From a virus, in IMG/VR virus record IMGVR_UViG_3300027659_000260, positions 1-21,023 of that record: DNA of 21,023 bases. One strand, given 5' to 3'. Shown one piece after another: positions 1 through 21,014 of the stretch. The notes below the pieces were generated by a model. That model worked only from the letters and a program-made list of their open reading frames with translations, was not told the origin of the DNA and did not search any database. How positions within the stretch are numbered: position 1 is the stretch's first letter; each line of letters begins with the position of its first letter. The position numbers and the translations under genes were made by a program.

Positions 1-126
1 TCAGAAGAAACAAAAGAAAAATTTAAAGATAGAATTTGTAGTGAGGAAACAAAAGAAAAAATGAGTGAAGCTGCTAAATTAAGATGGCAAAATAAAAAAA
101 ATAACTTACAATTAATTACCGAATAA
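1..126 (+). CDS. C-terminal fragment of a GIY-YIG/NUMOD3-type homing endonuclease (5' end outside window)
   Basis: The first 41 codons are open in frame 1 and end with TAA at 124-126; the start lies upstream of the window. The peptide contains two SEETKEK-type units, the second running into a KMSEAAKLRWQ stretch. This matches the NUMOD3 DNA-binding repeats at the end of the complete endonuclease at 2635-3138, which has SEETKLKMSEAKK followed by LYWQ. NUMOD3 repeats are known as sequence-recognition modules of GIY-YIG and HNH homing endonucleases. I infer that this is a second, paralogous free-standing homing endonuclease about 2.5 kb from the first. The catalytic domain is not visible, so GIY-YIG rather than HNH is a guess from the paralogue. 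A strong terminator follows 24 bp after the stop. Confidence 0.75.
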   Translation, partial: SEETKEKFKDRICSEETKEKMSEAAKLRWQNKKNNLQLITE

Positions 127-150: not shown

Positions 151-184
151 CCCCATCCTCATAAAGGTGGGGTTTTTTGTTTTA
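151..184 (+). terminator. Rho-independent terminator after the endonuclease
   Basis: A 7-bp stem CCCCATC/GGTGGGG (151-157 with 166-172, one G-T wobble) encloses an 8-nt loop. It is followed by six T, one G and four T. The stem end and T tract form the first part of the 47-bp repeat at 167-213. Confidence 0.85.
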
Positions 185-213
185 AATATAATACAACTAT
201 TAAGTATTTAATA
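167..213 (+). repeat. 47-bp direct repeat, copy 1: terminator 3' arm plus promoter-like leader
   Basis: The 47 bases from GTGGGG and the T tract through AACTATTAAGTATTTAATA are identical to 1344-1390. The repeat starts inside the terminator stem and ends in an AACTATTAAGTATTTA element that resembles the leaders of the tail genes at 7186, 10644 and 16777. I read it as a combined stop-and-restart transcription module. The two copies flank the three genes at 250-1321. Recombination between them would delete that cassette cleanly and leave one module. The promoter role is inferred; the sequence identity is seen directly. Confidence 0.8.
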
Positions 214-249
214 TAAATAAACAAATAAAAAAAGTCCTTATATAATATA

Positions 250-447
250 ATGAATAAAATAAATATTATATTCAATAATTTTAAAAAGTACTGGGTTGAG
301 GTATCAACTACCCTTGGTATGATTATCGTTTTAATATCTTATTTAACAAAAAATATAGATTTTAATACGTTTATTGGGGGATTAATATCTATTATAACAA
401 TTATTACATCACTAAAGCAATTATTTAAAAAAAATGGTAGAGGATAG
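250..447 (+). CDS. Small membrane protein with two predicted transmembrane segments (holin-like size)
   Basis: The 65-residue product has two hydrophobic stretches, about residues 19-33 (STTLGMIIVLISYLT) and 39-55 (TFIGGLISIITIITSL). The N-terminus and the C-terminus (KQLFKKNGRG) are basic. Size, two membrane passes and a charged tail fit a small holin or a superinfection-exclusion membrane protein, but no family motif is recognised. It is the first gene of a three-gene cassette of membrane or exported proteins, downstream of the 47-bp terminator-promoter repeat. The next gene starts inside its last codons, a 14-bp overlap that suggests translational coupling. The endolysin of this phage lies about 20 kb away, so a holin role is not supported by context. 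Confidence 0.75.
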   Translation: MNKINIIFNNFKKYWVEVSTTLGMIIVLISYLTKNIDFNTFIGGLISIITIITSLKQLFKKNGRG

Positions 448-883
448 TTTATTAACACTAGCAGTTAAAAATACTGATAACACAAAAATAAAGTCAATTA
501 AGGATTCATCAACTATTAGTAGTTTAATCTTAGACGATAATGATATATTAATAGGTATAATATATAAAAATGGTAATACTATTTTTATAAATGGTAATAA
601 ACAAGTTGGTGATTATACCGATGATATTACACCTACTAAAAAAGACTTACATTTAAAGTCCGATACAATAAAATTAGGTGATATGACTTGGATTAAATAT
701 GAACCGAGGGGTGATGTACAACCACTAAAATTATATTCAACGGATAAACCTAAATTATATAATGTTGATAAAAAAGATTTATATCCACTAAACCCCCATT
801 TTAATTCAATGATATTCGTATTTACGATTATAACAGTTTATATATTTATAATAAGATCCTACAATCTTTTATTTAAACCATAA
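434..883 (+). CDS. C-terminally membrane-anchored protein of unknown function
   Basis: The 149-residue product has a polar, beta-prone N-terminal region (about 1-122) rich in Asp, Lys, Asn and Thr. A single hydrophobic segment follows near residues 126-145 (MIFVFTIITVYIFIIRSYN), and only a few residues remain after it. There is no signal peptide, so the topology resembles a tail-anchored protein with its soluble domain in the cytoplasm. The start overlaps the preceding gene by 14 bp, which supports ATG 434 and coupled expression. The central part (GDMTWIKYEPRGD) looks like a folded domain but matches nothing I recognise. Position between a two-pass membrane protein and a secreted protein suggests an envelope-directed function, possibly superinfection exclusion. 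That is inference from context only. Confidence 0.75.
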   Translation: MVEDSLLTLAVKNTDNTKIKSIKDSSTISSLILDDNDILIGIIYKNGNTIFINGNKQVGDYTDDITPTKKDLHLKSDTIKLGDMTWIKYEPRGDVQPLKLYSTDKPKLYNVDKKDLYPLNPHFNSMIFVFTIITVYIFIIRSYNLLFKP

Positions 884-901
884 ACAATTTATATATAAAA
901 T

Positions 902-1321
902 ATGAAAAAATTTTTATTATTATTTTTATTAATATTACCAGTAGTATTAATGTCACAAATTGTTAATATTAAAGGAACTTGTACCCAAATTAAACAAGAT
1001 GTTTTTACTATTAGATATAGTATAGAAAGAGGGAGTTTAGATAGTGGTATAACTGATATAAATACTTTTTTTTATATTGAGCAAAGGATACCTGATAATG
1101 TTTATCCAATTGGATTAACCGCTGGTGGTGGTATATATTCATTTACAGACCATATTTTAACATATACTTGGTATAGCCTACCAAAAGTTGATTTTATTGA
1201 AGTGGTCTATAAAGTTAAAGTAGATCAGGTTTGTGAAGTAACTGTTTTAACGGGATGGTATTACTATTTAGTGGCGGAGGAAAAACAAGTTTATAAACTA
1301 CCCGAAGTTAGATTAGAATAA
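902..1321 (+). CDS. Secreted protein with Bacteroidota-type signal peptide, possible moron product
   Basis: Residues 1-19 form a classic signal peptide: MKK, a long Leu-rich core, then VVLMSQ. Cleavage before Gln19 is a pattern common in Bacteroidota exported proteins. The mature part of about 120 residues is rich in beta-strand-forming residues and has two cysteines (C27, C111) that could form a disulfide. The segment from about 36 to 107 (IRYSIER, FYIEQRIPD, GGGIYSF, LTYTWYSLP, VVYKVKV) reminds me of a beta-sandwich module in Bacteroidota cell-surface proteins; this is a memory-based impression, not a search result. A phage structural protein would not carry a signal peptide. Export to the periplasm or surface of the infected cell suggests a moron that alters the host envelope. 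It ends directly at a terminator. Confidence 0.8.
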   Translation: MKKFLLLFLLILPVVLMSQIVNIKGTCTQIKQDVFTIRYSIERGSLDSGITDINTFFYIEQRIPDNVYPIGLTAGGGIYSFTDHILTYTWYSLPKVDFIEVVYKVKVDQVCEVTVLTGWYYYLVAEEKQVYKLPEVRLE

Positions 1322-1327
1322 GTATTA

Positions 1328-1360
1328 AACCCCTACTCTAAAAGTGGGGTTTTTTGTTTT
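1328..1360 (+). terminator. Rho-independent terminator closing the envelope-protein cassette
   Basis: AACCCC, one bulged T, and ACT pair with AGT and GGGGTT (1328-1336 with 1343-1351) around a short CTAAAA loop. TTTTTTGTTTT follows. It is 7 nt after the stop codon of the secreted-protein gene. Its 3' arm and T tract are the start of the second 47-bp repeat. Confidence 0.85.
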
Positions 1361-1390
1361 AAATATAATACAACTATTAAGTATTTAATA
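1344..1390 (+). repeat. 47-bp direct repeat, copy 2: terminator 3' arm plus promoter-like leader
   Basis: This segment is identical to 167-213 over all 47 bases. Its AAGTATTTA element begins exactly 24 nt before the ATG at 1403. The same distance separates AA(G/A)TATTTA from the ATG in the leaders of the genes at 7186 and 10644. This supports a promoter function for the 3' half and a real gene at 1403. The 5' half acts as the terminator of the upstream cassette. Confidence 0.8.
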
Positions 1391-1402: not shown

Positions 1403-1522
1403 ATGTCTGAATTATCAATTCGTCACATCGCCCAAATAGTTCGTAGAAAAATGATTACGAAGGTAAAGCCGTCTGGTAAATTATATAATAGACAACAAAA
1501 TAAAAAAAATAAAAATGATTAA
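1403..1522 (+). CDS. 39-residue basic protein ahead of the head-tail adaptor gene
   Basis: ATG at 1403 opens a 39-codon frame: MSELSIRHIAQIVRRKMITK, then VKPSGKLYNRQQNKKNKND. It is highly basic (Arg and Lys throughout) and lacks acidic clusters and hydrophobic segments. The first half could form an amphipathic helix, so nucleic-acid binding is possible but unproven. Two things argue that it is real: the start lies exactly 24 nt after the promoter-like AAGTATTTA element, and the stop overlaps the start of the adaptor gene by 8 bp (ATGATTAA), a typical phage coupling. Its position just before a connector gene also suits a small head or connector accessory protein. No family is recognised. Confidence 0.6.
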   Translation: MSELSIRHIAQIVRRKMITKVKPSGKLYNRQQNKKNKND

Positions 1523-2060
1523 TACTTTTTTTACAAGTCAAGCGTGGTTAGCGGATTACTTACCAATAACTAAAAATATTGCGTATAGTGATATTGTCCC
1601 CCATCTACAAACAAGTCACCAAATTAACCTAAACGAGTTTTTAGGTACTAATTTTTTTAACTATCTTTTGGATAGTTATTCAGCGCAAACATTAAACGCT
1701 AATGAAATAATTTTAGTGGAAGATTTTATAAAACCTTACGTAGCTTGGGTAACATTATATTATATGACACCATTTTTAACTTTTCAATTATTTAATAAAG
1801 GGATTTTACAATTAACATCTGAAAATAGTCAGCCTGTTGATTTGGAAGTAATAAAATATTTATCAAAGAATACATTAGACCGTTCTCAGTGGTTTTCAGA
1901 GCGTCTAATAAACTATCTTTGTGATAATGGGAACTTATTCCCCCAATACACTAATAACAACTCCGATGATATAATACCTTTTGGTGGGGCAACAACTTAC
2001 GAAAGTGATTTATATTTAGGTGCTGGTAATTCTTGTAATAATAGAAGGATATTTGGATAA
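1515..2060 (+). CDS. Phage head-tail adaptor (neck) protein, DUF6712-like
   Basis: The 181-residue product has the pattern I associate with DUF6712 and related gp6-type connector proteins of Bacteroidota phages. This includes an early ITKNIAYSDIVPHLQTSHQINLNEFLGTNFF-like run (positions 18-48, with key residues I27, H30, Q37, L43, G44), then the FIKPYVAWVTLYYMTPFLTF helix (71-90) and NKG at 94-96. In the known family this helical protein forms the ring between portal and tail. The C-terminal 40 residues are Asn- and Gly-rich and less conserved. The start overlaps the upstream 39-aa gene by 8 bp. Portal and capsid genes are expected nearby but are not in the window, so they may lie upstream of position 1. 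The following gene is convergent. Confidence 0.6.
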   Translation: MINTFFTSQAWLADYLPITKNIAYSDIVPHLQTSHQINLNEFLGTNFFNYLLDSYSAQTLNANEIILVEDFIKPYVAWVTLYYMTPFLTFQLFNKGILQLTSENSQPVDLEVIKYLSKNTLDRSQWFSERLINYLCDNGNLFPQYTNNNSDDIIPFGGATTYESDLYLGAGNSCNNRRIFG

Positions 2061-2634: not shown

Positions 2635-3138
2635 ATGGAAAATAATTATTATATATACTTTCACATTAACCCCCTCTATAACAAAGTGTTTTACGTTGGG
2701 AAGGGTAAAGATAAACGAGCGTGGAGTAATCGTAATAGAAATCAGTATTGGAATAATACCGTTAATAAATACGGATATATTGTAGATATTTTTGAGGATA
2801 ATTTAACCGAGGATGAGGCATTCCAACGAGAAAAATTCTATATTAATAAAATAGGTAGAACTAATTTAGTTAATCTAACTGATGGTGGGGAAGGTCAAAG
2901 TGGTAATAAAAATTGGTTAGGTAAAAAACATACTGACGAAGCACGTAAAAAATGTAGTGAAACAAAAATTGGTAATAAAAATCCATTAGGAACTATTAGG
3001 TCAGAAGAAACAAAAAAGAAAATGTCCGAATCACTAAAAGGTAAAAAAAACGCATTAGGATCAATTAGGTCAGAAGAGACAAAATTAAAAATGTCAGAAG
3101 CAAAAAAATTATATTGGCAATCTAAAAAATCATTATAA
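2635..3138 (+). CDS. GIY-YIG homing endonuclease with NUMOD3 repeats
   Basis: The N-terminus carries a variant GIY-YIG motif: YYIYFHI (5-11) followed by VFYVGKGKDKRAW (18-30). R28 lies at the conserved basic site, and a helix with E61/E66 (EDEAFQREKFYI) supplies the candidate metal-binding glutamate. NLTDGGEG (80-87) is the typical end of this nuclease domain. Residues 90-158 are three 23-residue NUMOD3-type repeats, each beginning G(N/K)KN and containing SEETK or DEARK, which act in sequence-specific DNA contact in known homologues. The first residue of GIY is replaced by Y/I, as in many phage members. The stop overlaps the next ATG (TAATG), so it is translationally coupled to the sigma-like gene. 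It is probably a free-standing homing gene. Confidence 0.88.
   Translation: MENNYYIYFHINPLYNKVFYVGKGKDKRAWSNRNRNQYWNNTVNKYGYIVDIFEDNLTEDEAFQREKFYINKIGRTNLVNLTDGGEGQSGNKNWLGKKHTDEARKKCSETKIGNKNPLGTIRSEETKKKMSESLKGKKNALGSIRSEETKLKMSEAKKLYWQSKKSL
2902..3108 (+). repeat. Three tandem 69-bp repeats encoding NUMOD3 units
   Basis: Units at 2902-2970, 2971-3039 and 3040-3108 each encode 23 residues beginning G(N/K)KN. Units 2 and 3 are closely similar at DNA level (IRSEETK in both). TCAGAAGAAACAAAA of unit 2 (3001-3015) also occurs at 1-15, in the truncated paralogue at the window start. Confidence 0.7.
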
Positions 3139-3704
3139 TGAGTAAAGAAATAATAGATAACTATTTTAGCAAGCGATATAAATTTTTAAATTCGGTTGTT
3201 GTAAATGTTAATAGGGGAAAAAATATACCCGAAGATTTATATACAGATCTGGTTAATGAACTATATATTTTTATTATTAAAAATATTAATAAGATTGAGC
3301 CTATAATAGAAAAGTCGGGTGAATCTGGATTGGAGGGATTTTGTGTAATGTGGATTAAAAATCAAGTACGTTGGACATCTGACTTTAAAAAGTTAAATGA
3401 AATACATAAGTCGTTTAAGAGCGAATATATTGTTGAGTTTGATAATAGATTGATTGATGATTTATACTTCGTTAAATACGAGGAAATAGACCTATTAAGG
3501 TTTTTTACAGAAGATCAGACATCAAAAATATTAAAGACCTATAAAATAATGGAGGGGTTTGAACAATACGAAAAAAACTTATTTGAATTATATTTTACGC
3601 AGCAAAGATCAATGACCGAAATATCAAAAATGGTGGGTATATCAAAAGGTAGTGTATTTAACTTATTACACGAGATGTATAAAAAAATAAAAAGCAAATT
3701 ATAA
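3138..3704 (+). CDS. Sigma-70-like phage sigma factor
   Basis: The 188-residue product has the two-domain plan of a small sigma factor. Residues about 34-80 resemble region 2 (LYTDLVNELYIFIIKN, then FCVMWIKNQVRW). Residues about 145-188 resemble region 4 with a helix-turn-helix (MTEISKMVGISKGSVFNLLHEM) and a basic tail. Known phage sigma factors recruit host RNA polymerase core to phage middle or late promoters. Here the obvious candidates are the AACTA/AAGTATTTA leaders before the tail genes. It is joined to its neighbours on both sides by TAATG overlaps, so endonuclease, sigma factor and methyltransferase are probably made together. Region 2 is divergent, so a plain HTH regulator remains an alternative. 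Confidence 0.65.
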   Translation: MSKEIIDNYFSKRYKFLNSVVVNVNRGKNIPEDLYTDLVNELYIFIIKNINKIEPIIEKSGESGLEGFCVMWIKNQVRWTSDFKKLNEIHKSFKSEYIVEFDNRLIDDLYFVKYEEIDLLRFFTEDQTSKILKTYKIMEGFEQYEKNLFELYFTQQRSMTEISKMVGISKGSVFNLLHEMYKKIKSKL

Positions 3705-4582
3705 TGAACCATACAATAATAAATGCGGATTGTTTTGAGGAGATTAAAAATTTCGCAGATAACTCAATAGACCTAATTATAACATCACCCCCATATTCAG
3801 ATATAATTAGTTACGGAAAAAATATTGATGTTAAAAAATCTAGTGAATATGTAGATTGGATATTACCCCTATTCAACGAGATATACCGAGTTTTAAAACC
3901 TAGTGGTAGTTTTATACTTAATATCAACGATAATTGTAGTAATGGTTATAGAAACACCTTTATTTACGAATTAATATATAGAAGTTCAAAGGAAACAAAA
4001 TTAAAGTTTTACGATACCTATATTTGGCATAAAAGAAATGGGATACCTAATGGTGCTAATAAAAGATTTAGAAATAATACTGAATTTATATTCCATTTTT
4101 GTAAAGATGCTAAACAGATGAAATTTTATATGGATAGAGTTTTGATTGAACCAAAGGATTCATATAAAAATAGGTTTAATAATGAAGTTGTATATGACGG
4201 ACAGGGACAGATTGTAGAAGGAGCAAGAATTAAAAAAAAGATAAAGTATTTAACTGCTTCAGTAAATAAAACAAAAGATGGTTATACTGAAAATACTAAT
4301 ATTAGAATATTACCTGATAAAACGAGACCAGATAATGTTTTTAGATTTGCTACCGCAGGGGCATCACGAGATAACACCATTAAACATCCTGCACCATTTA
4401 ATAAAGAGTTACCCCAATACTTTATAAATTTATTAACAGATGAGGGTGATATAGTAATGGATACTTTTGGTGGTATAATGACTAGTGGTTTAGCAGCAAA
4501 AAGTTTAAATAGAAATTTTATAGGGATTGAACTTAATGAAAAATACGCTGAGTTTGGGGAAAAAAGAATTAATAAACATTAA
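3704..4582 (+). CDS. Orphan DNA methyltransferase, beta-class (N6-adenine or N4-cytosine)
   Basis: The 292-residue product carries the catalytic motif IV TSPPY at residues 27-31, close to the N-terminus. The SAM-binding motif I is near the C-terminus as DTFGG (253-257, in place of DPFxG), followed by SGLAA and FIGIELNEKY. This order defines the beta class of amino-methyltransferases. SPPY is found in both N4-cytosine and N6-adenine enzymes, so the modified base is open. The middle region (about 100-225, with WHKRNGIPNGANKRFRN) should hold the target recognition domain. No restriction endonuclease is adjacent, so it probably protects phage DNA from host restriction or marks it for regulation. 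The gene follows the sigma-like gene with a TAATG overlap. The Pro to Thr change in motif I (DPF to DTF) is mild. Confidence 0.88.
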   Translation: MNHTIINADCFEEIKNFADNSIDLIITSPPYSDIISYGKNIDVKKSSEYVDWILPLFNEIYRVLKPSGSFILNINDNCSNGYRNTFIYELIYRSSKETKLKFYDTYIWHKRNGIPNGANKRFRNNTEFIFHFCKDAKQMKFYMDRVLIEPKDSYKNRFNNEVVYDGQGQIVEGARIKKKIKYLTASVNKTKDGYTENTNIRILPDKTRPDNVFRFATAGASRDNTIKHPAPFNKELPQYFINLLTDEGDIVMDTFGGIMTSGLAAKSLNRNFIGIELNEKYAEFGEKRINKH

Positions 4583-14291: not shown

Positions 14292-15845
14292 ATGATTAAC
14301 ATTACATCCTATCCACAAGATTTTTTACCAATATATAATAATTATATATATTCTACTCAAAGTAGTTTTTATCCAAATTTACCAGCAAATTATAGGGCTA
14401 TTTGTGATGTGTATATTAATGATAATAAAGTTGGAACTTTAAAATCATACCCAAATAAAGATGGATATAATTTTTTTAGATTAGATAGAATTTGTCAGGA
14501 TTATTTTAGTTTTGATATTCACGATGAACCTAATTTTTTTGATCCATTTTATATAAATCCTAATTCAGTTAAAAATATTAAAGGATTATTTTACGAGGAG
14601 TATGGTGACTTATCAACGGGTACAACAATATATACCGCTAATACCGTAACTGGTGATACTTTAATCGCTTTTAATGGAGCTATTCCTTGGATTGGGGATA
14701 TGAGTAATAATTATAATCCGCAAGTTAAAGGAACAGGATTTCCCGTTGTAACCGGATTAAATTTTACTAATTATTGGCCGCAAAGTTATATCGCACAAGA
14801 TGGTATTCCCGGTGTTGAATCATTATTTATGACTTATGCTCCAAGAACATTAAAAATGAATTATACCGATACTTATTATCTTAATATATTAACTCAACTT
14901 ACCGATGTATTATATAAATTAGATGTAAGAACTTACGATAGTGATGGTAATTTAATTACTAGTGAAACTTGGAATAATTCTTATAACGTCGTTACTTTAA
15001 CAGGGGCTACATCAGAAACAGTATTACAATCAATAGGTATAGGACCATTAGATATTAATACACTTTCTCTTAATTCAACAGGAGCCCCCCTTATTAATGC
15101 TGATGTATCTTATTATACAATTCAAGGGTTAGATTTTTACGATTATTATTGTACTGAAAAATTTAAAGTTGTAATGAATACTAAAAAGTATTATCAAAAA
15201 TTTAGATTTAGGTGGTTAAATTCATTAGGTGGTTTTGACTCCTACACTTTTGAAGGTAGAAATTCACCAACTAAAAATGTTAGGAACTCAACTGAATTTA
15301 CAAAATTATTTGGTTATGAAAATATATTTGGTGAATACCAATATCCAAATGGTGATAGGGGTAGAAAAAATATATATCAATCCGTTGAAACACAATATAC
15401 CGTATTTAGTCAATTTATTACCGAAGCGGAGTCGTATTGGTTAAACGAATTATTCACATCACCAGAGGTCTATTTAGAGGTTATTGAAGATCCAAAAGAA
15501 ATAGCAAGTACTTTTGATTGGTTAGGGAGTGGATTATTAGGTATAAGTTATAACACCCCCCATTTATATACTACTAATGCGCTATTATGTATTATTGATT
15601 GTAATGATTCAGATAATAATCAATACGCTGGTGTAAATATTATTGATGATTTTAATATTGGACTTGCCGCATTATACGCTCCAATAACTAATGGATTAAC
15701 ATTCACTATTGACGGTCCAATAAAATTATTACCAATTATAATAAATTCAAAAACTTATAACATTAAACAGGGTATTAATCCGAGAAATATTCAAGTTCAG
15801 ATTGATTTTACATTAGCGTTGGAAGATCCTAAGCAGAGGGGATAA
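14292..15845 (+). CDS. Phage tail structural protein
   Basis: The 517-residue product starts with INITSYPQDFLPIYNNYIY (2-20) and continues with beta-rich sequence holding VGTLKSYPNKDGYNFFRLDR, then ICQDYFSF. This opening (P-x-x-F-x-P-x-Y-N, then a G-rich strand and F-x-x-DR-I) is one I associate with a conserved structural protein near the tail tip of Bacteroidota phages. Later segments (AFNGAIPWIGD, YFSFDIHDEP, TIDGPIKLLPIIIN) are also beta-rich, and the end is charged (LEDPKQRG). It is the last gene of the tail block that begins at 7186 and is followed 2 nt later by a hairpin and then a terminator. A distal tail or tip role is inferred. Confidence 0.6.
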   Translation: MINITSYPQDFLPIYNNYIYSTQSSFYPNLPANYRAICDVYINDNKVGTLKSYPNKDGYNFFRLDRICQDYFSFDIHDEPNFFDPFYINPNSVKNIKGLFYEEYGDLSTGTTIYTANTVTGDTLIAFNGAIPWIGDMSNNYNPQVKGTGFPVVTGLNFTNYWPQSYIAQDGIPGVESLFMTYAPRTLKMNYTDTYYLNILTQLTDVLYKLDVRTYDSDGNLITSETWNNSYNVVTLTGATSETVLQSIGIGPLDINTLSLNSTGAPLINADVSYYTIQGLDFYDYYCTEKFKVVMNTKKYYQKFRFRWLNSLGGFDSYTFEGRNSPTKNVRNSTEFTKLFGYENIFGEYQYPNGDRGRKNIYQSVETQYTVFSQFITEAESYWLNELFTSPEVYLEVIEDPKEIASTFDWLGSGLLGISYNTPHLYTTNALLCIIDCNDSDNNQYAGVNIIDDFNIGLAALYAPITNGLTFTIDGPIKLLPIIINSKTYNIKQGINPRNIQVQIDFTLALEDPKQRG

Positions 15846-15846
15846 T

Positions 15847-15869
15847 ATTTTAACAATCGGTGTTAAAAT
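15847..15869 (+). other. 9-bp perfect hairpin just after the tail gene stop
   Basis: ATTTTAACA (15847-15855) and TGTTAAAAT (15861-15869) are perfect reverse complements around a 5-nt ATCGG loop. It begins one nucleotide after the stop codon and ends 1 nt before the terminator stem. Such a hairpin could protect the mRNA 3' end or aid termination; it could also be a protein-binding palindrome. Confidence 0.6.
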
Positions 15870-15870
15870 T

Positions 15871-15907
15871 AAACCCCCAATATATTAGTTTATAAAGGGG
15901 GTTTTTT
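15871..15907 (+). terminator. Terminator of the 7186-15845 tail block
   Basis: AAACCCCC (15871-15878) pairs with GGGGGTTT (15897-15904) around an 18-nt AT-rich loop. A T tract ends at 15907. On the minus strand the same stem follows the small gene that stops at 15906 and is followed by AATTTT, so it may act in both directions. Confidence 0.8.
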
Positions 15908-15965
15908 ACGCTGATAAGATAAACGCTATTAAAAAGAGGGTAATAATAATTAAAATTGTTTTCAT
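15906..15965 (-). CDS. 19-residue hydrophobic peptide, coupled to the upstream minus-strand gene
   Basis: On the minus strand an ATG at 15965-15963 overlaps the stop of the gene at 15965-16213 as TAATG. The same junction joins the endonuclease, sigma-like and methyltransferase genes. It encodes MKTILIIITLFLIAFILSA and a TAA at 15908-15906. The peptide is a single hydrophobic segment with one Lys near the N-terminus, long enough to cross a membrane. It ends directly at a bidirectional stem-loop. It could be a membrane-active micro-peptide or toxin, an orphan signal peptide, or a chance frame; overlap and terminator position favour a real gene, but conservation is not tested. Confidence 0.4.
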   Translation of the reverse strand: MKTILIIITLFLIAFILSA

Positions 15966-16213
15966 TATAATTTTTTGTTTAAAATATTCATATCAAAAGA
16001 TTCAATTCGTTTAATGTCCTCTAAGGTGCTATCTTTTTCTAAGAATGTCATAACCTTACCACATTCAATATCGGGGTACTTAGATCGTCTTGTGCGTATT
16101 ATAAACGCATTTAATGTTATATCAGTAAAGTGGGCTAACCATAAATCTGATTTTGATTGATATTCTACCCCCTTATATTTACAACGACAACTAGTATGTA
16201 TATTTTTACTCAT
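15965..16213 (-). CDS. Small protein with homing-nuclease-like DNA-binding pattern
   Basis: The 82-residue product contains CRCKYKGVEYQSKSDLWLAHF (key residues C9, C11, Y13, G15, Y18, S20, S22), then ITLNAFIIRTRRSKYPD. The pattern Y-x-G-x-x-Y-x-S-x-S-D, a helix, then an Arg-rich strand recalls the small helix-turn-helix modules (NUMOD1/IENR1-like) attached to homing endonucleases. Here it stands alone without a nuclease domain. Its leader ATATTTATTAGT-ATG is identical over 15 bases to that of the chaperone gene at 19787. It lies on the minus strand inside the tail gene block, together with a 19-aa peptide. A regulator or the remnant of a homing gene is possible. Confidence 0.55.
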   Translation of the reverse strand: MSKNIHTSCRCKYKGVEYQSKSDLWLAHFTDITLNAFIIRTRRSKYPDIECGKVMTFLEKDSTLEDIKRIESFDMNILNKKL

Positions 16214-16294
16214 ACTAATAAATATAAGAATAATAATATAAAAAAAAATTATATTATTTAACTTTTACTAAATATTGATATATTTATTAGTATA

Positions 16295-16371
16295 ACATCC
16301 AAGTTATATTATTGTTGGAATATATATTATTATATAATTAATAATTAACCCCTCTACACTAACTTGGATGT
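16295..16371 (+). repeat. 12-bp perfect inverted repeat interlocked with a terminator
   Basis: ACATCCAAGTTA (16295-16306) is the exact reverse complement of TAACTTGGATGT (16360-16371). The right half lies in the loop of the terminator hairpin whose arms are 16347-16357 and 16375-16386. The order is therefore a, b, a', b': two helices that cannot both form fully, because only 3 nt join a' to b'. This looks like an attenuator-type switch or, at DNA level, a binding site pair. Confidence 0.65.
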
Positions 16372-16395
16372 ATCGTAGTAGGGGTTTTTTATTTT
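16347..16395 (+). terminator. Strong Rho-independent terminator in the non-coding gap
   Basis: AACCCCTCTAC (16347-16357) pairs with GTAG, one bulged T, and AGGGGTT (16375-16386) around a 17-nt loop. TTTTTTATTTT follows. There is no protein gene just upstream on the plus strand, so it would end a short non-coding RNA starting somewhere in the preceding AT-rich sequence. Confidence 0.8.
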
Positions 16396-16402
16396 AACCT
16401 AC

Positions 16403-16492
16403 AAATGGTGTTTCGTTTAAACTTGACGAAGGGGTGATACAAACCTAATAAAATAAAACAATCTTAAATGAGAAAATGGTGTTCTAAACTTG
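16403..16492 (+). repeat. Imperfect direct repeat AAATGGTGTT ... TAAACTTG
   Basis: AAATGGTGTT at 16403-16412 is followed 5 nt later by TAAACTTG (16418-16425). The same two blocks occur at 16474-16483 and 16485-16492 with a 1-nt gap. The copies are about 70 bp apart. In the first copy, TTCGT and ACGAA (16412-16416, 16426-16430) also form a small hairpin with the TAAACTTG in its loop. Confidence 0.5.
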
Positions 16493-16526
16493 TTTCCACT
16501 CTCAGCCCAACTAAAATAGTATTAAT

Positions 16527-16591
16527 GGTGATTATAAGTTATAGATGTTCTTTTGGGGGCCTGGGGGCATTTATAACTTATTTAAATCACC
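16527..16591 (+). ncRNA. Long hairpin with two G5 runs in its loop, candidate structured RNA element
   Basis: GGTGATTATAAGTTATAGAT plus G (16527-16547) pairs with the segment 16568-16591, giving about 20 base pairs: GGTGATT with AATCACC, ATAAGTTATA with TATAACTTAT, and GATG with CATT, with a 3-nt bulge and one G-T pair. The 20-nt loop (16548-16567) contains GGGGGCCTGGGGG. The pairing is far longer than chance allows in 65 nt. G runs of this length could pair with C runs elsewhere or stack. The call as RNA rather than DNA element is inference. Confidence 0.45.
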
Positions 16592-16734
16592 CTCAAAAAT
16601 ATAGATATAAATTAATATTTTTATTAAAGTTATTAATATATAAATTATAATAAAATTAATTAATTAATTCAAATTAAAAATAAATATTATATTACCCAAC
16701 GAATAGTATATTATAATATATCATCCTTATAAAA

Positions 16735-16776
16735 AACTATATATAAAATTAAGTATTTATTAATAAAAATATTATT
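16735..16776 (+). promoter_or_regulatory. Promoter-like leader of the fibre/tip and tape measure genes
   Basis: AACTA at 16735 is followed 16 nt later by AAGTATTTA at 16751, with ATG at 16777, 26 nt after the start of the second element. The match to the leaders at 7146 and 10604 includes the A run before AACTA and the TAATAAAA after TATTTAT. It restarts transcription after the non-coding gap. Confidence 0.5.
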
Positions 16777-17613
16777 ATGGGTAAAATTACATCATACGCA
16801 AGACAACAACACCACGGGGTTAGTAATCCTTTATCAGGAGCAACAGTACCAGTATCCAACGATCACACAGATGGTAGTTGGACTATAACCGATATTTACG
16901 ATAGGGAGTTAATGATTAACACCGGTAATGGTAAATTACAATATAGAGCGGGTAATGATATATATACATTAAGTCCTTCAAGTGGGGATACCGGACAAAC
17001 GGGATCAATTACAATAGATTTACAAAATGTAACAGAAGTATTTTATCCCGCTATAAAATTGATTCCATCAACAATTAATAGTACTAATGCTGCTATTGTT
17101 TGTGATAGTGTTCCAGTTGGTGGGATTTCTTATTCAAAAGTAGATTTTGCCGCTGGTAGTGCTTATGATGGATTACAAATAGGAACATATAGTGGTTTAA
17201 CTTATCCAGATGTTTCTGGACCTTATGCTCAAACATATTACGCAACTATTAATGTAATTACTACTGTTAGTGATCTAATAAGTATATCAGAAATTAATAT
17301 TAACCCATCAAATATTGTTATATCGGTTGATGATGGAACAGATAACGCCACTATTAATATTGAACCAAAATTAATTAAAATAAATGCTATTGAGACATCT
17401 GGAATAGTTACTTTACCAGCAGGTGGGGGAACAGTAACAGTAAATAGTTCAGGTGTTCAAGCTGCTAGTCCTATTTTTATAACCCCCCAATCAGTAATAA
17501 GCTCATCAGATTTCTTTTATGTAGATAATAAAATAAATAGTACATCTTTTGATATAACAAGTATTAACACACTTGGTAGCGCAGTAGATGTCGCTTGGTA
17601 TATCCTTAATTAA
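16777..17613 (+). CDS. Fibre or tail-tip protein with lectin-like C-terminus
   Basis: The 278-residue product begins MGKITSYARQQHHGVSNP and has a HTDGSWTITDIYDRELMIN segment (31-49) typical of fibre proteins, with a collagen-like GDTGQTGS near 70. The last 70 residues (VTVNSSGVQAASPIFITPQS, then FFYVDNKINSTSFDITSINT and AVDVAWYILN) match a C-terminal tip seen in many short tail fibres of Bacteroidota phages. There G-x-V-x-V-x-x-S-x-V, SxIxxTPQ, TSFxI and a final W-x-I mark a beta-sandwich. The tip probably binds host surface glycans. The gene starts a transcript after the non-coding gap, and its end is close to the tape measure gene. Confidence 0.65.
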   Translation: MGKITSYARQQHHGVSNPLSGATVPVSNDHTDGSWTITDIYDRELMINTGNGKLQYRAGNDIYTLSPSSGDTGQTGSITIDLQNVTEVFYPAIKLIPSTINSTNAAIVCDSVPVGGISYSKVDFAAGSAYDGLQIGTYSGLTYPDVSGPYAQTYYATINVITTVSDLISISEININPSNIVISVDDGTDNATINIEPKLIKINAIETSGIVTLPAGGGTVTVNSSGVQAASPIFITPQSVISSSDFFYVDNKINSTSFDITSINTLGSAVDVAWYILN

Positions 17614-20395: not shown

Positions 20396-20571
20396 GTAAA
20401 AAAGAAATAATAGAGTTAAAAAAAATAGAAGAACAAGAAAAAACATTTCAGTGGTATTCATTTATTTATGCGTTAGCGGATGGTGATATAACTAAATTTG
20501 ATAAAATAATTGATTTAAATTTCATTATGTGTCTAAATCATTTATCATTTAAAAAAACATTTAAAAAATGA
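20272..20571 (+). CDS. Tail assembly chaperone, -1 frame extension (GT-like fusion product)
   Basis: This frame has no ATG start of its own; it is open from 20272 to the stop at 20569-20571 and overlaps the 0-frame gene in the -1 frame. A ribosome slipping back one base at T-TTT-TTT (20290-20296) would make a 261-residue fusion: 170 residues of the chaperone plus 91 more. The added part contains EGLSKKEIIELKKIEEQEKT and FQWYSFIYALADGDITKFDK, then LNFIMCLNHLSF. The W-Y-x-x-I-Y-x-LA-x-GDI-TKF pattern is typical of the C-terminal half of such fused chaperones. T-TTA-AAG at 20371-20377 is a second in-phase slippery heptamer and also gives 261 residues. The fusion start at 19787 is inferred. Confidence 0.65.
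   Translation, partial: CYKFISFFLEFRRGILGKYNALFGGFEDGDGSRFKDDYEGLSKKEIIELKKIEEQEKTFQWYSFIYALADGDITKFDKIIDLNFIMCLNHLSFKKTFKK
20290..20296 (+). promoter_or_regulatory. Candidate -1 frameshift site T-TTT-TTT in a T9 run
   Basis: T at 20290 with 0-frame codons TTT (20291-20293) and TTT (20294-20296) forms an X-XXY-YYZ slippery heptamer within a run of nine T (20289-20297). It lies in the only stretch (20272-20395) where the 0 and -1 frames are both open. Codon composition switches to the -1 frame directly after it. A single-base sequencing error in the homopolymer would give the same picture. Confidence 0.55.
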
Positions 20572-21014
20572 AAGTAAGCGAAAGAGGTATTGACCTTATA
20601 AAAAAATACGAGGGATGTAAATTAAATAGTTATCTCTGCCCCTCAAATATCCCAACGATTGGATTTGGTAATACATACTACTTAGATGGAACAAAAGTGG
20701 AGTTAGGTCAAAAGATCACACAACAACAAGCCGATAAATTATTATTATCCACATTAACTAAATTTGAAAAAGATGTTTGGTCAGTTATTAAACAATCGGT
20801 AAATCAACGAATGTTTGACTCATTAGTATCATTTACATATAATGTTGGGTTAGGTAATTTAAAGTCCTCTACGCTCTTAAAAAAGGTTAATAAAGATATT
20901 AACGACCCCACCATTAAAGATGAATTTTTAAAATGGAATAAAAGTAAAGGTAGGGTATTAAACGGACTTTCTAAAAGAAGAAATGACGAATGGTTACTTT
21001 ATAGTTCAAAATAA
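20568..21014 (+). CDS. Endolysin, GH24 lysozyme (E-C-T type)
   Basis: The 148-residue product matches the T4-lysozyme-like GH24 (muramidase) family in length. The catalytic region YEGCKLNSYLCPSNIPTIGF places Glu15, Cys24 and Thr30 at the spacing E-8-(D/C)-5-T known for this family; Cys replaces the Asp of T4 lysozyme, a known variant. Later family patterns are MFDSLVSFTYNVGLGNLKSS (about 82-101) and GLSKRRNDEWLL near the C-terminus, matching the usual G-L-x-x-R-R-x-x-E. It cuts peptidoglycan between MurNAc and GlcNAc for lysis. There is no signal peptide, so export needs a holin or similar. It overlaps the chaperone gene by ATGA. A holin candidate is not seen next to it. Confidence 0.92.
   Translation: MKVSERGIDLIKKYEGCKLNSYLCPSNIPTIGFGNTYYLDGTKVELGQKITQQQADKLLLSTLTKFEKDVWSVIKQSVNQRMFDSLVSFTYNVGLGNLKSSTLLKKVNKDINDPTIKDEFLKWNKSKGRVLNGLSKRRNDEWLLYSSK

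Follow-up and report, generated by a model that had tools for sequence, protein, structure and literature searches.

The stretch of DNA analysed here (the window) comprises the whole of an IMG/VR record, 21,023 bp in length. The record has a linear classification and is hence a fragment, with ~6 kb of the genome lying outside it. It belongs to a small tailed phage. Its genes run from the tail of an endonuclease gene through three small open reading frames (ORF1-ORF3), a 39-aa ORF, a DUF6712 gene, a 162-aa gene on the other strand and a GIY-YIG endonuclease gene to genes for a sigma-region-4-like protein, a methyltransferase and a 94-aa membrane protein, followed by small genes, the terminase, tail proteins and a lysozyme. 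Because the sole cultured-phage match of the DUF6712 protein is to Nonlabens phages P12024L/S, at 20.7% identity, the host probably lies in the Bacteroidota. In a genome scan with a terminase alignment, nothing beyond a match of 21% identity came up, in a Verrucomicrobiales MAG, and neither host nor prophage was identified.

Three genes between two copies of a 47-bp module

The left end of the window, up to the DUF6712 gene, contains the following features, all on the plus strand.

1-126, plus strand: homing endonuclease gene of GIY-YIG/NUMOD3 type, 3' end only, identified from sequence and cut by the contig end
147-176, plus strand: left, native intrinsic terminator (predicted; -15.3 kcal/mol, z -3.9)
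167-213, plus strand: left copy of the 47-bp terminator-end/leader module (repeat search)
201-210, plus strand: TAAGTATTTA, leader/promoter-like motif of the left copy, with the core [AG]TATTTA[TA] at 204
250-447, plus strand: ORF1, 65 aa, two hydrophobic segments, predicted N-in/C-in from charge
434-883, plus strand: ORF2, 149 aa, with an N domain of cytoplasmic type and a single membrane helix at the C-terminus
902-1321, plus strand: ORF3, 139 aa, signal-like N-terminal segment followed by a predicted beta-sandwich
1331-1349, plus strand: second terminator, after ORF3 (predicted; -11.3 kcal/mol, z -2.1)
1344-1390, plus strand: right copy of the 47-bp module (repeat search)
1403-1522, plus strand: 39-aa ORF, the native first ORF after the module, conserved in relatives
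1515-2060, plus strand: gene for the DUF6712 structural protein, flanking the insertion site on the right

The first-pass annotation had described two perfect 47-bp copies around ORF1-ORF3, and our repeat search confirmed them: the direct copies, at 167-213 and 1344-1390, do not differ at any position, and the exactness ends at both edges. No other exact direct repeat in the window is as long (the runner-up measures 18), and the 47 bp exceed anything in 200 order-4 Markov controls, whose longest repeat averaged 16.6 and reached a maximum of 20. When two mismatches are allowed, the similarity grows to 162-217 and 1339-1394 (56 nt, 96%) and extends to approximately the position of the native start codon at the right copy; the entire leader seems to have been duplicated along with the terminator end.

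Each copy consists of the 3' arm of a predicted intrinsic terminator, a T-tract and an AT-rich leader carrying TAAGTATTTA. The predicted stems and the recurrence of the leader motif agree with the earlier description of a terminator end joined to a promoter-like leader. The left terminator has the 5' arm GCCCCATCC, which is that of the single terminator in related phages, whereas the right one has a 5' arm of its own, ACCCCTACTC, and has only its 3' end in common with the left. Since the two differ in this arm, the terminator behind ORF3 probably arrived with the cassette.

The three genes had been annotated as encoding a two-pass membrane protein, a tail-anchored protein and a protein with a signal peptide. 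Hydropathy agrees with this assignment, although the first of the two ORF1 segments is weak; the loop between these segments is short and the ends of the protein are positive. ORF1 and ORF2 overlap by 14 nt. The codon log-likelihoods of all three genes match the rest of the phage, and every other frame is negative. Comparison with Pfam, PHROGs, NCBIfam and PADLOC yielded nothing above weak matches, which for ORF1 were to MG406, SLATT and 2TM effector families (E 0.009-0.05), none of them a holin. Homologues of the three proteins were absent from viral contigs, and none in phage records was credible. AlphaFold models computed with no alignment gave a low-confidence sandwich for ORF3 (pLDDT 63), with weak CBM and Ig-like matches that we do not treat as function, and for ORF2 a model usable at the C-terminal helix only.

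The junction in related phages

We located relatives of the window's phage via their terminase and DUF6712 proteins. Two sister phages, G002 (IMGVR 3300017777_002569) and G007 (3300031746_000766), have conserved flanks that are ~82-89% identical to those of the window. In both, a single copy of the module (44/47) comes after the portal gene, with the 39-aa ORF and the DUF6712 gene directly behind it and no cassette; the expectation in the first-pass annotation that relatives might keep a single 47-bp-like copy in place of the three genes was thereby borne out. With the window's flanks fused across one copy, 243 bp align to the empty site at 88% identity, and the only gaps are of 1-2 nt (2-3 positions), upstream of the module and none inside it. 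The module is duplicated in the window and the cassette site is empty in the relatives, so that the cassette stands between genes that are contiguous there; for this one cassette, the module flanks a gene block that varies between relatives. Those members of an outgroup (G003-G006 and G008; terminase 71% identical, ~70% nucleotide identity) that cover the junction are also without the cassette and have a GIY-YIG endonuclease gene, a terminator and a leader at that place. A module scan of viral contigs found only the two relatives already known.

Because neither the sister phages nor the outgroup has the cassette, the simplest history is that the window's lineage gained it once, and we consider it very probable that the cassette was gained at a duplicated terminator-leader module. 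Judged by comparison with the relatives, the bracketing module duplicates the intergenic signal that natively lies between portal and DUF6712 genes in this phage group, and the cassette is not free-standing. An ancestral cassette, lost from G002/G007 and the outgroup by recombination between the copies, would account for the composition of the G002/G007 copy, which joins the left terminator arm to the right downstream sequence, as a repeat deletion gives. However, the cassette would then have to be lost at least twice, in the sisters and in the outgroup, where one gain suffices. Further, the two window copies are identical to each other and depart from the relatives' copy at the same three positions (44/47 each), a pattern that points to a recent duplication or to gene conversion still in progress and fits either a duplication in the window's lineage or conversion between the copies. 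We regard ancestral loss as improbable. Still less weight falls on an assembly artefact, in which a cassette from elsewhere in this or another genome was joined across the repeat. The repeat is short, lies close to a contig end and comes from a metagenomic record, but both flanks match the native site, the codon usage is that of the phage and ordinary reads are longer than 47 bp, and we think such a join very unlikely.

In Nonlabens phage P12024L, a reverse-strand gene lies between the portal and DUF6712-like genes, which indicates that the junction tolerates insertions in the wider group. The first-pass annotation had also found an adjacent homing endonuclease fragment in keeping with a mobile region. 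A GIY-YIG/NUMOD3 tail is indeed present at 1-126, but it need not be a degraded gene, because the contig ends there and the outgroup has an intact GIY-YIG gene at the same place, directly after the portal gene. The window's two GIY-YIG/NUMOD3-type genes, at 1-126 and 2635-3138, have similar repeated C-terminal ends, and the relatives carry genes of this type at several different sites.

Further variation within the group lies away from the junction. G001 and G002 (L004, L020, L003 and L010) are >99% identical and overlap at both ends; the overlaps imply a ~27.5 kb circular map, on which no replication genes were noticed. At the position of the window's methyltransferase gene (3704-4582) these phages have a different methyltransferase. 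Tail genes also flank a variable interval, 15845-16777, which contains an imperfect palindrome of 82 nt at 16212-16293; the equivalent interval in relatives holds different small membrane or lipoprotein genes.

The leader motif and its nearest known counterpart

The core of the leader motif, [AG]TATTTA[TA], occurs in 6 of the 23 upstream regions scanned in the window (P 0.002) and in 8 of 22 in L005, a number matched by 0 of 2000 shuffles. In four window genes and in 6 of the 22 listed L005 genes it lies 19-24 nt 5' of the start codon, and it is frequently found directly 3' of a terminator. Three entries bear on its use.

Starts at 1403, 7186, 10644 and 16777: window genes with the motif 19-24 nt upstream (motif scan)
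3240, 4239, 6303, 10543, 14005 and 17245 in L005: genes with the motif 19-24 nt upstream (motif scan)
3138-3704, plus strand: sigma-region-4-like protein, present in all relatives covering the region; possible leader-motif factor

The presence of this core before start codons is kept in two phage groups, as a candidate phage-specific promoter or translation signal. From TAAGTATTTA to the ORF1 start the distance is 46 nt, outside the 19-24 nt spacing usual at other genes. A scan for standard sigma-70 promoters was uninformative in this 29% GC sequence (132 matches, against 142 in shuffles). The sigma-region-4-like protein (187-188 aa; relatives 74% and 48% identical) is assigned by weak similarity and gives only a weak match to a solved SigF; its gene possibly encodes the phage transcription factor for the leader motif. 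Together, motif and protein are consistent with a phage-specific promoter class. Because the spacing between motif and start codon is tight, a role in translation initiation is also possible.

The nearest known principle is the PeSL (promoter early stem-loop; Arbiol 2010, Comeau 2014) of T4-type phages. As described in PMC4503421 and PMC3950731, this element unites a stem-loop terminator with a promoter and recurs between genes, and homologous recombination at its copies is proposed to shuffle gene cassettes. Both window copies have a predicted stem-loop with a joined leader. Unlike the PeSL, the window module occurs in a different phage group and lacks a T4-type early promoter: its leader is not a host-type early promoter and is also found ahead of structural genes, its promoter is putative, and only two full copies were seen, around one cassette. 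As those accounts define the family, the window module is not a member, because it is neither in a T4-type phage nor tied to an early promoter.

A candidate role in lysis

Two features are central to the possible function of the cassette.

20568-21014, plus strand: phage lysozyme (PF00959), with no signal peptide, anchor or membrane segment
6180-7035 of L010: PF05105 holin and 145-aa anchored protein, between the DUF6712 gene and the 162-aa gene

Because the lysozyme has no export signal, a holin is expected. Hairpin-like membrane segments occur in the window in the cassette and otherwise only in the 94-aa protein, which is present in all relatives. ORF1 is the best candidate for a class II-type holin (holin classes as in PMC9636201): for a protein of two transmembrane helices in N-in/C-in orientation, its hydropathy and positive ends fit, with the first segment weak. 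Like a class II holin lysis cassette, the window combines a small protein predicted to have this two-helix topology with a signal-less lysozyme. Unlike such a cassette, it has an ORF1 with no match to the holin families of Pfam, PHROGs and NCBIfam, and its ORF2 and ORF3 are not spanin-like; the lysozyme gene is not adjacent, which counts against a lysis role. We considered ORF2 and ORF3 as spanins and rejected this, the sole ORF2 helix being C-terminal and ORF3 having no obvious lipobox. A distant relative has a two-helix protein close to its amidase, and ORF1 did not compare convincingly with it.

The gene content of the relatives is complementary to that of the window. Right after its DUF6712 gene, G002 has an above-threshold PF05105 holin and the 145-aa anchored protein, and in G007 the beginning of that holin gene is present. 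Neither is found at this place in the window, where the DUF6712 gene adjoins the 162-aa gene directly, and L010 6180-7035 thus marks a second presence/absence site. G001, which is >99% identical to G002 in their overlap, carries the lysozyme, and no clear membrane segment occurs in any protein encoded by the sister phages' stretch that lies outside the window's record. In the outgroup, the lysozyme gene of the window and G001 is absent at the same position (L012 3118-3140), and no lysozyme or PF05105 holin was recognised at all, so this lineage can lyse by other means. By this gene content, one module of small membrane proteins lies near DUF6712 in each lineage with a lysozyme, and the modules differ in origin. 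Lysis cassettes are exchanged for one another among P22-like phages even where their holins are non-homologous (PMC2629481), and the window's relatives would resemble them in this respect, with ORF1 as a candidate. Lysis is the likeliest job of the cassette, in a judgement we hold about evenly balanced with doubt. Because no homologue of the three proteins was found, the argument is drawn from topology and from gene-content complementarity across very few genomes, and we accept it with moderate confidence.

The first-pass annotation had called the cassette moron-like. On strict criteria, morons are inserted, usually independently expressed and without a role in morphogenesis or lysis (PMC2629481). 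In common with the morons of lambdoid and P22-like phages, the cassette is inserted between morphogenetic genes, is absent in relatives and has predicted transcription signals, a terminator and a leader, at its bounds, and to that extent the description stands. Unlike them, it is bounded by the duplicate of a native signal, its independent expression is putative, and it may act in lysis, which the definition excludes; if ORF1 is a holin, the strict label fails. A lysis role would explain the anatomy of the cassette at least as well as envelope alteration. Were it nonetheless a true moron, it would be an independently expressed, envelope-altering operon that takes no part in the lytic cycle and serves, for instance, to exclude superinfecting phages or to display ORF3 on the cell surface. 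The block's absence from relatives, the terminator and leader at each end, the predicted membrane location or export of all three products, the low-confidence Ig/CBM-like sandwich of ORF3 and the weak 2TM-effector similarity of ORF1 are compatible with this. However, no integrase or lysogeny gene was identified among the window's annotated genes, no similarity to a known exclusion or conversion protein was found, and the window's phage would be left with no obvious holin. We treat a true moron as a real but less probable alternative.

Our best explanation as a whole, to which we give about as much credence as doubt, is a gained, recombinable cassette with a role in lysis. A three-gene accessory operon would have been gained at the portal/DUF6712 operon junction with duplication of the native terminator and the immediate leader/promoter, the upstream operon keeping its terminator. 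Transcription of the cassette would start from one leader copy and stop at its own terminator, and the downstream operon would restart from the other copy. We infer both this promoter activity and recombination as the route: the identical 47-bp copies could recombine to remove the cassette cleanly, and the same homology could bring it in. ORF1 would be a class II-type holin serving the signal-less lysozyme, with ORF2 (membrane-anchored, cytoplasmic) and ORF3 (an exported beta-sandwich) as accessory or timing factors, and the cassette would take the place of the PF05105 holin and anchored protein found 3' of DUF6712 in sister phages. A wider reading, which we consider a long shot, is that the duplicated module is a general plug-in socket of this phage group, read by a phage sigma-like factor, that unrelated lysis modules are swapped through it and neighbouring sites, and that the cassette is a new holin system with cytoplasmic and exported regulators, in a layout comparable to T4 lysis inhibition.

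The window and its relatives show, at base resolution, a cassette present or absent where a terminator-promoter-like junction has been duplicated. Their phage group is little known and is not among the T4-like phages, from which this principle was described. The cassette is a specific candidate for an exchange of lysis genes that would leave the transcription of the flanking structural operons undisturbed.
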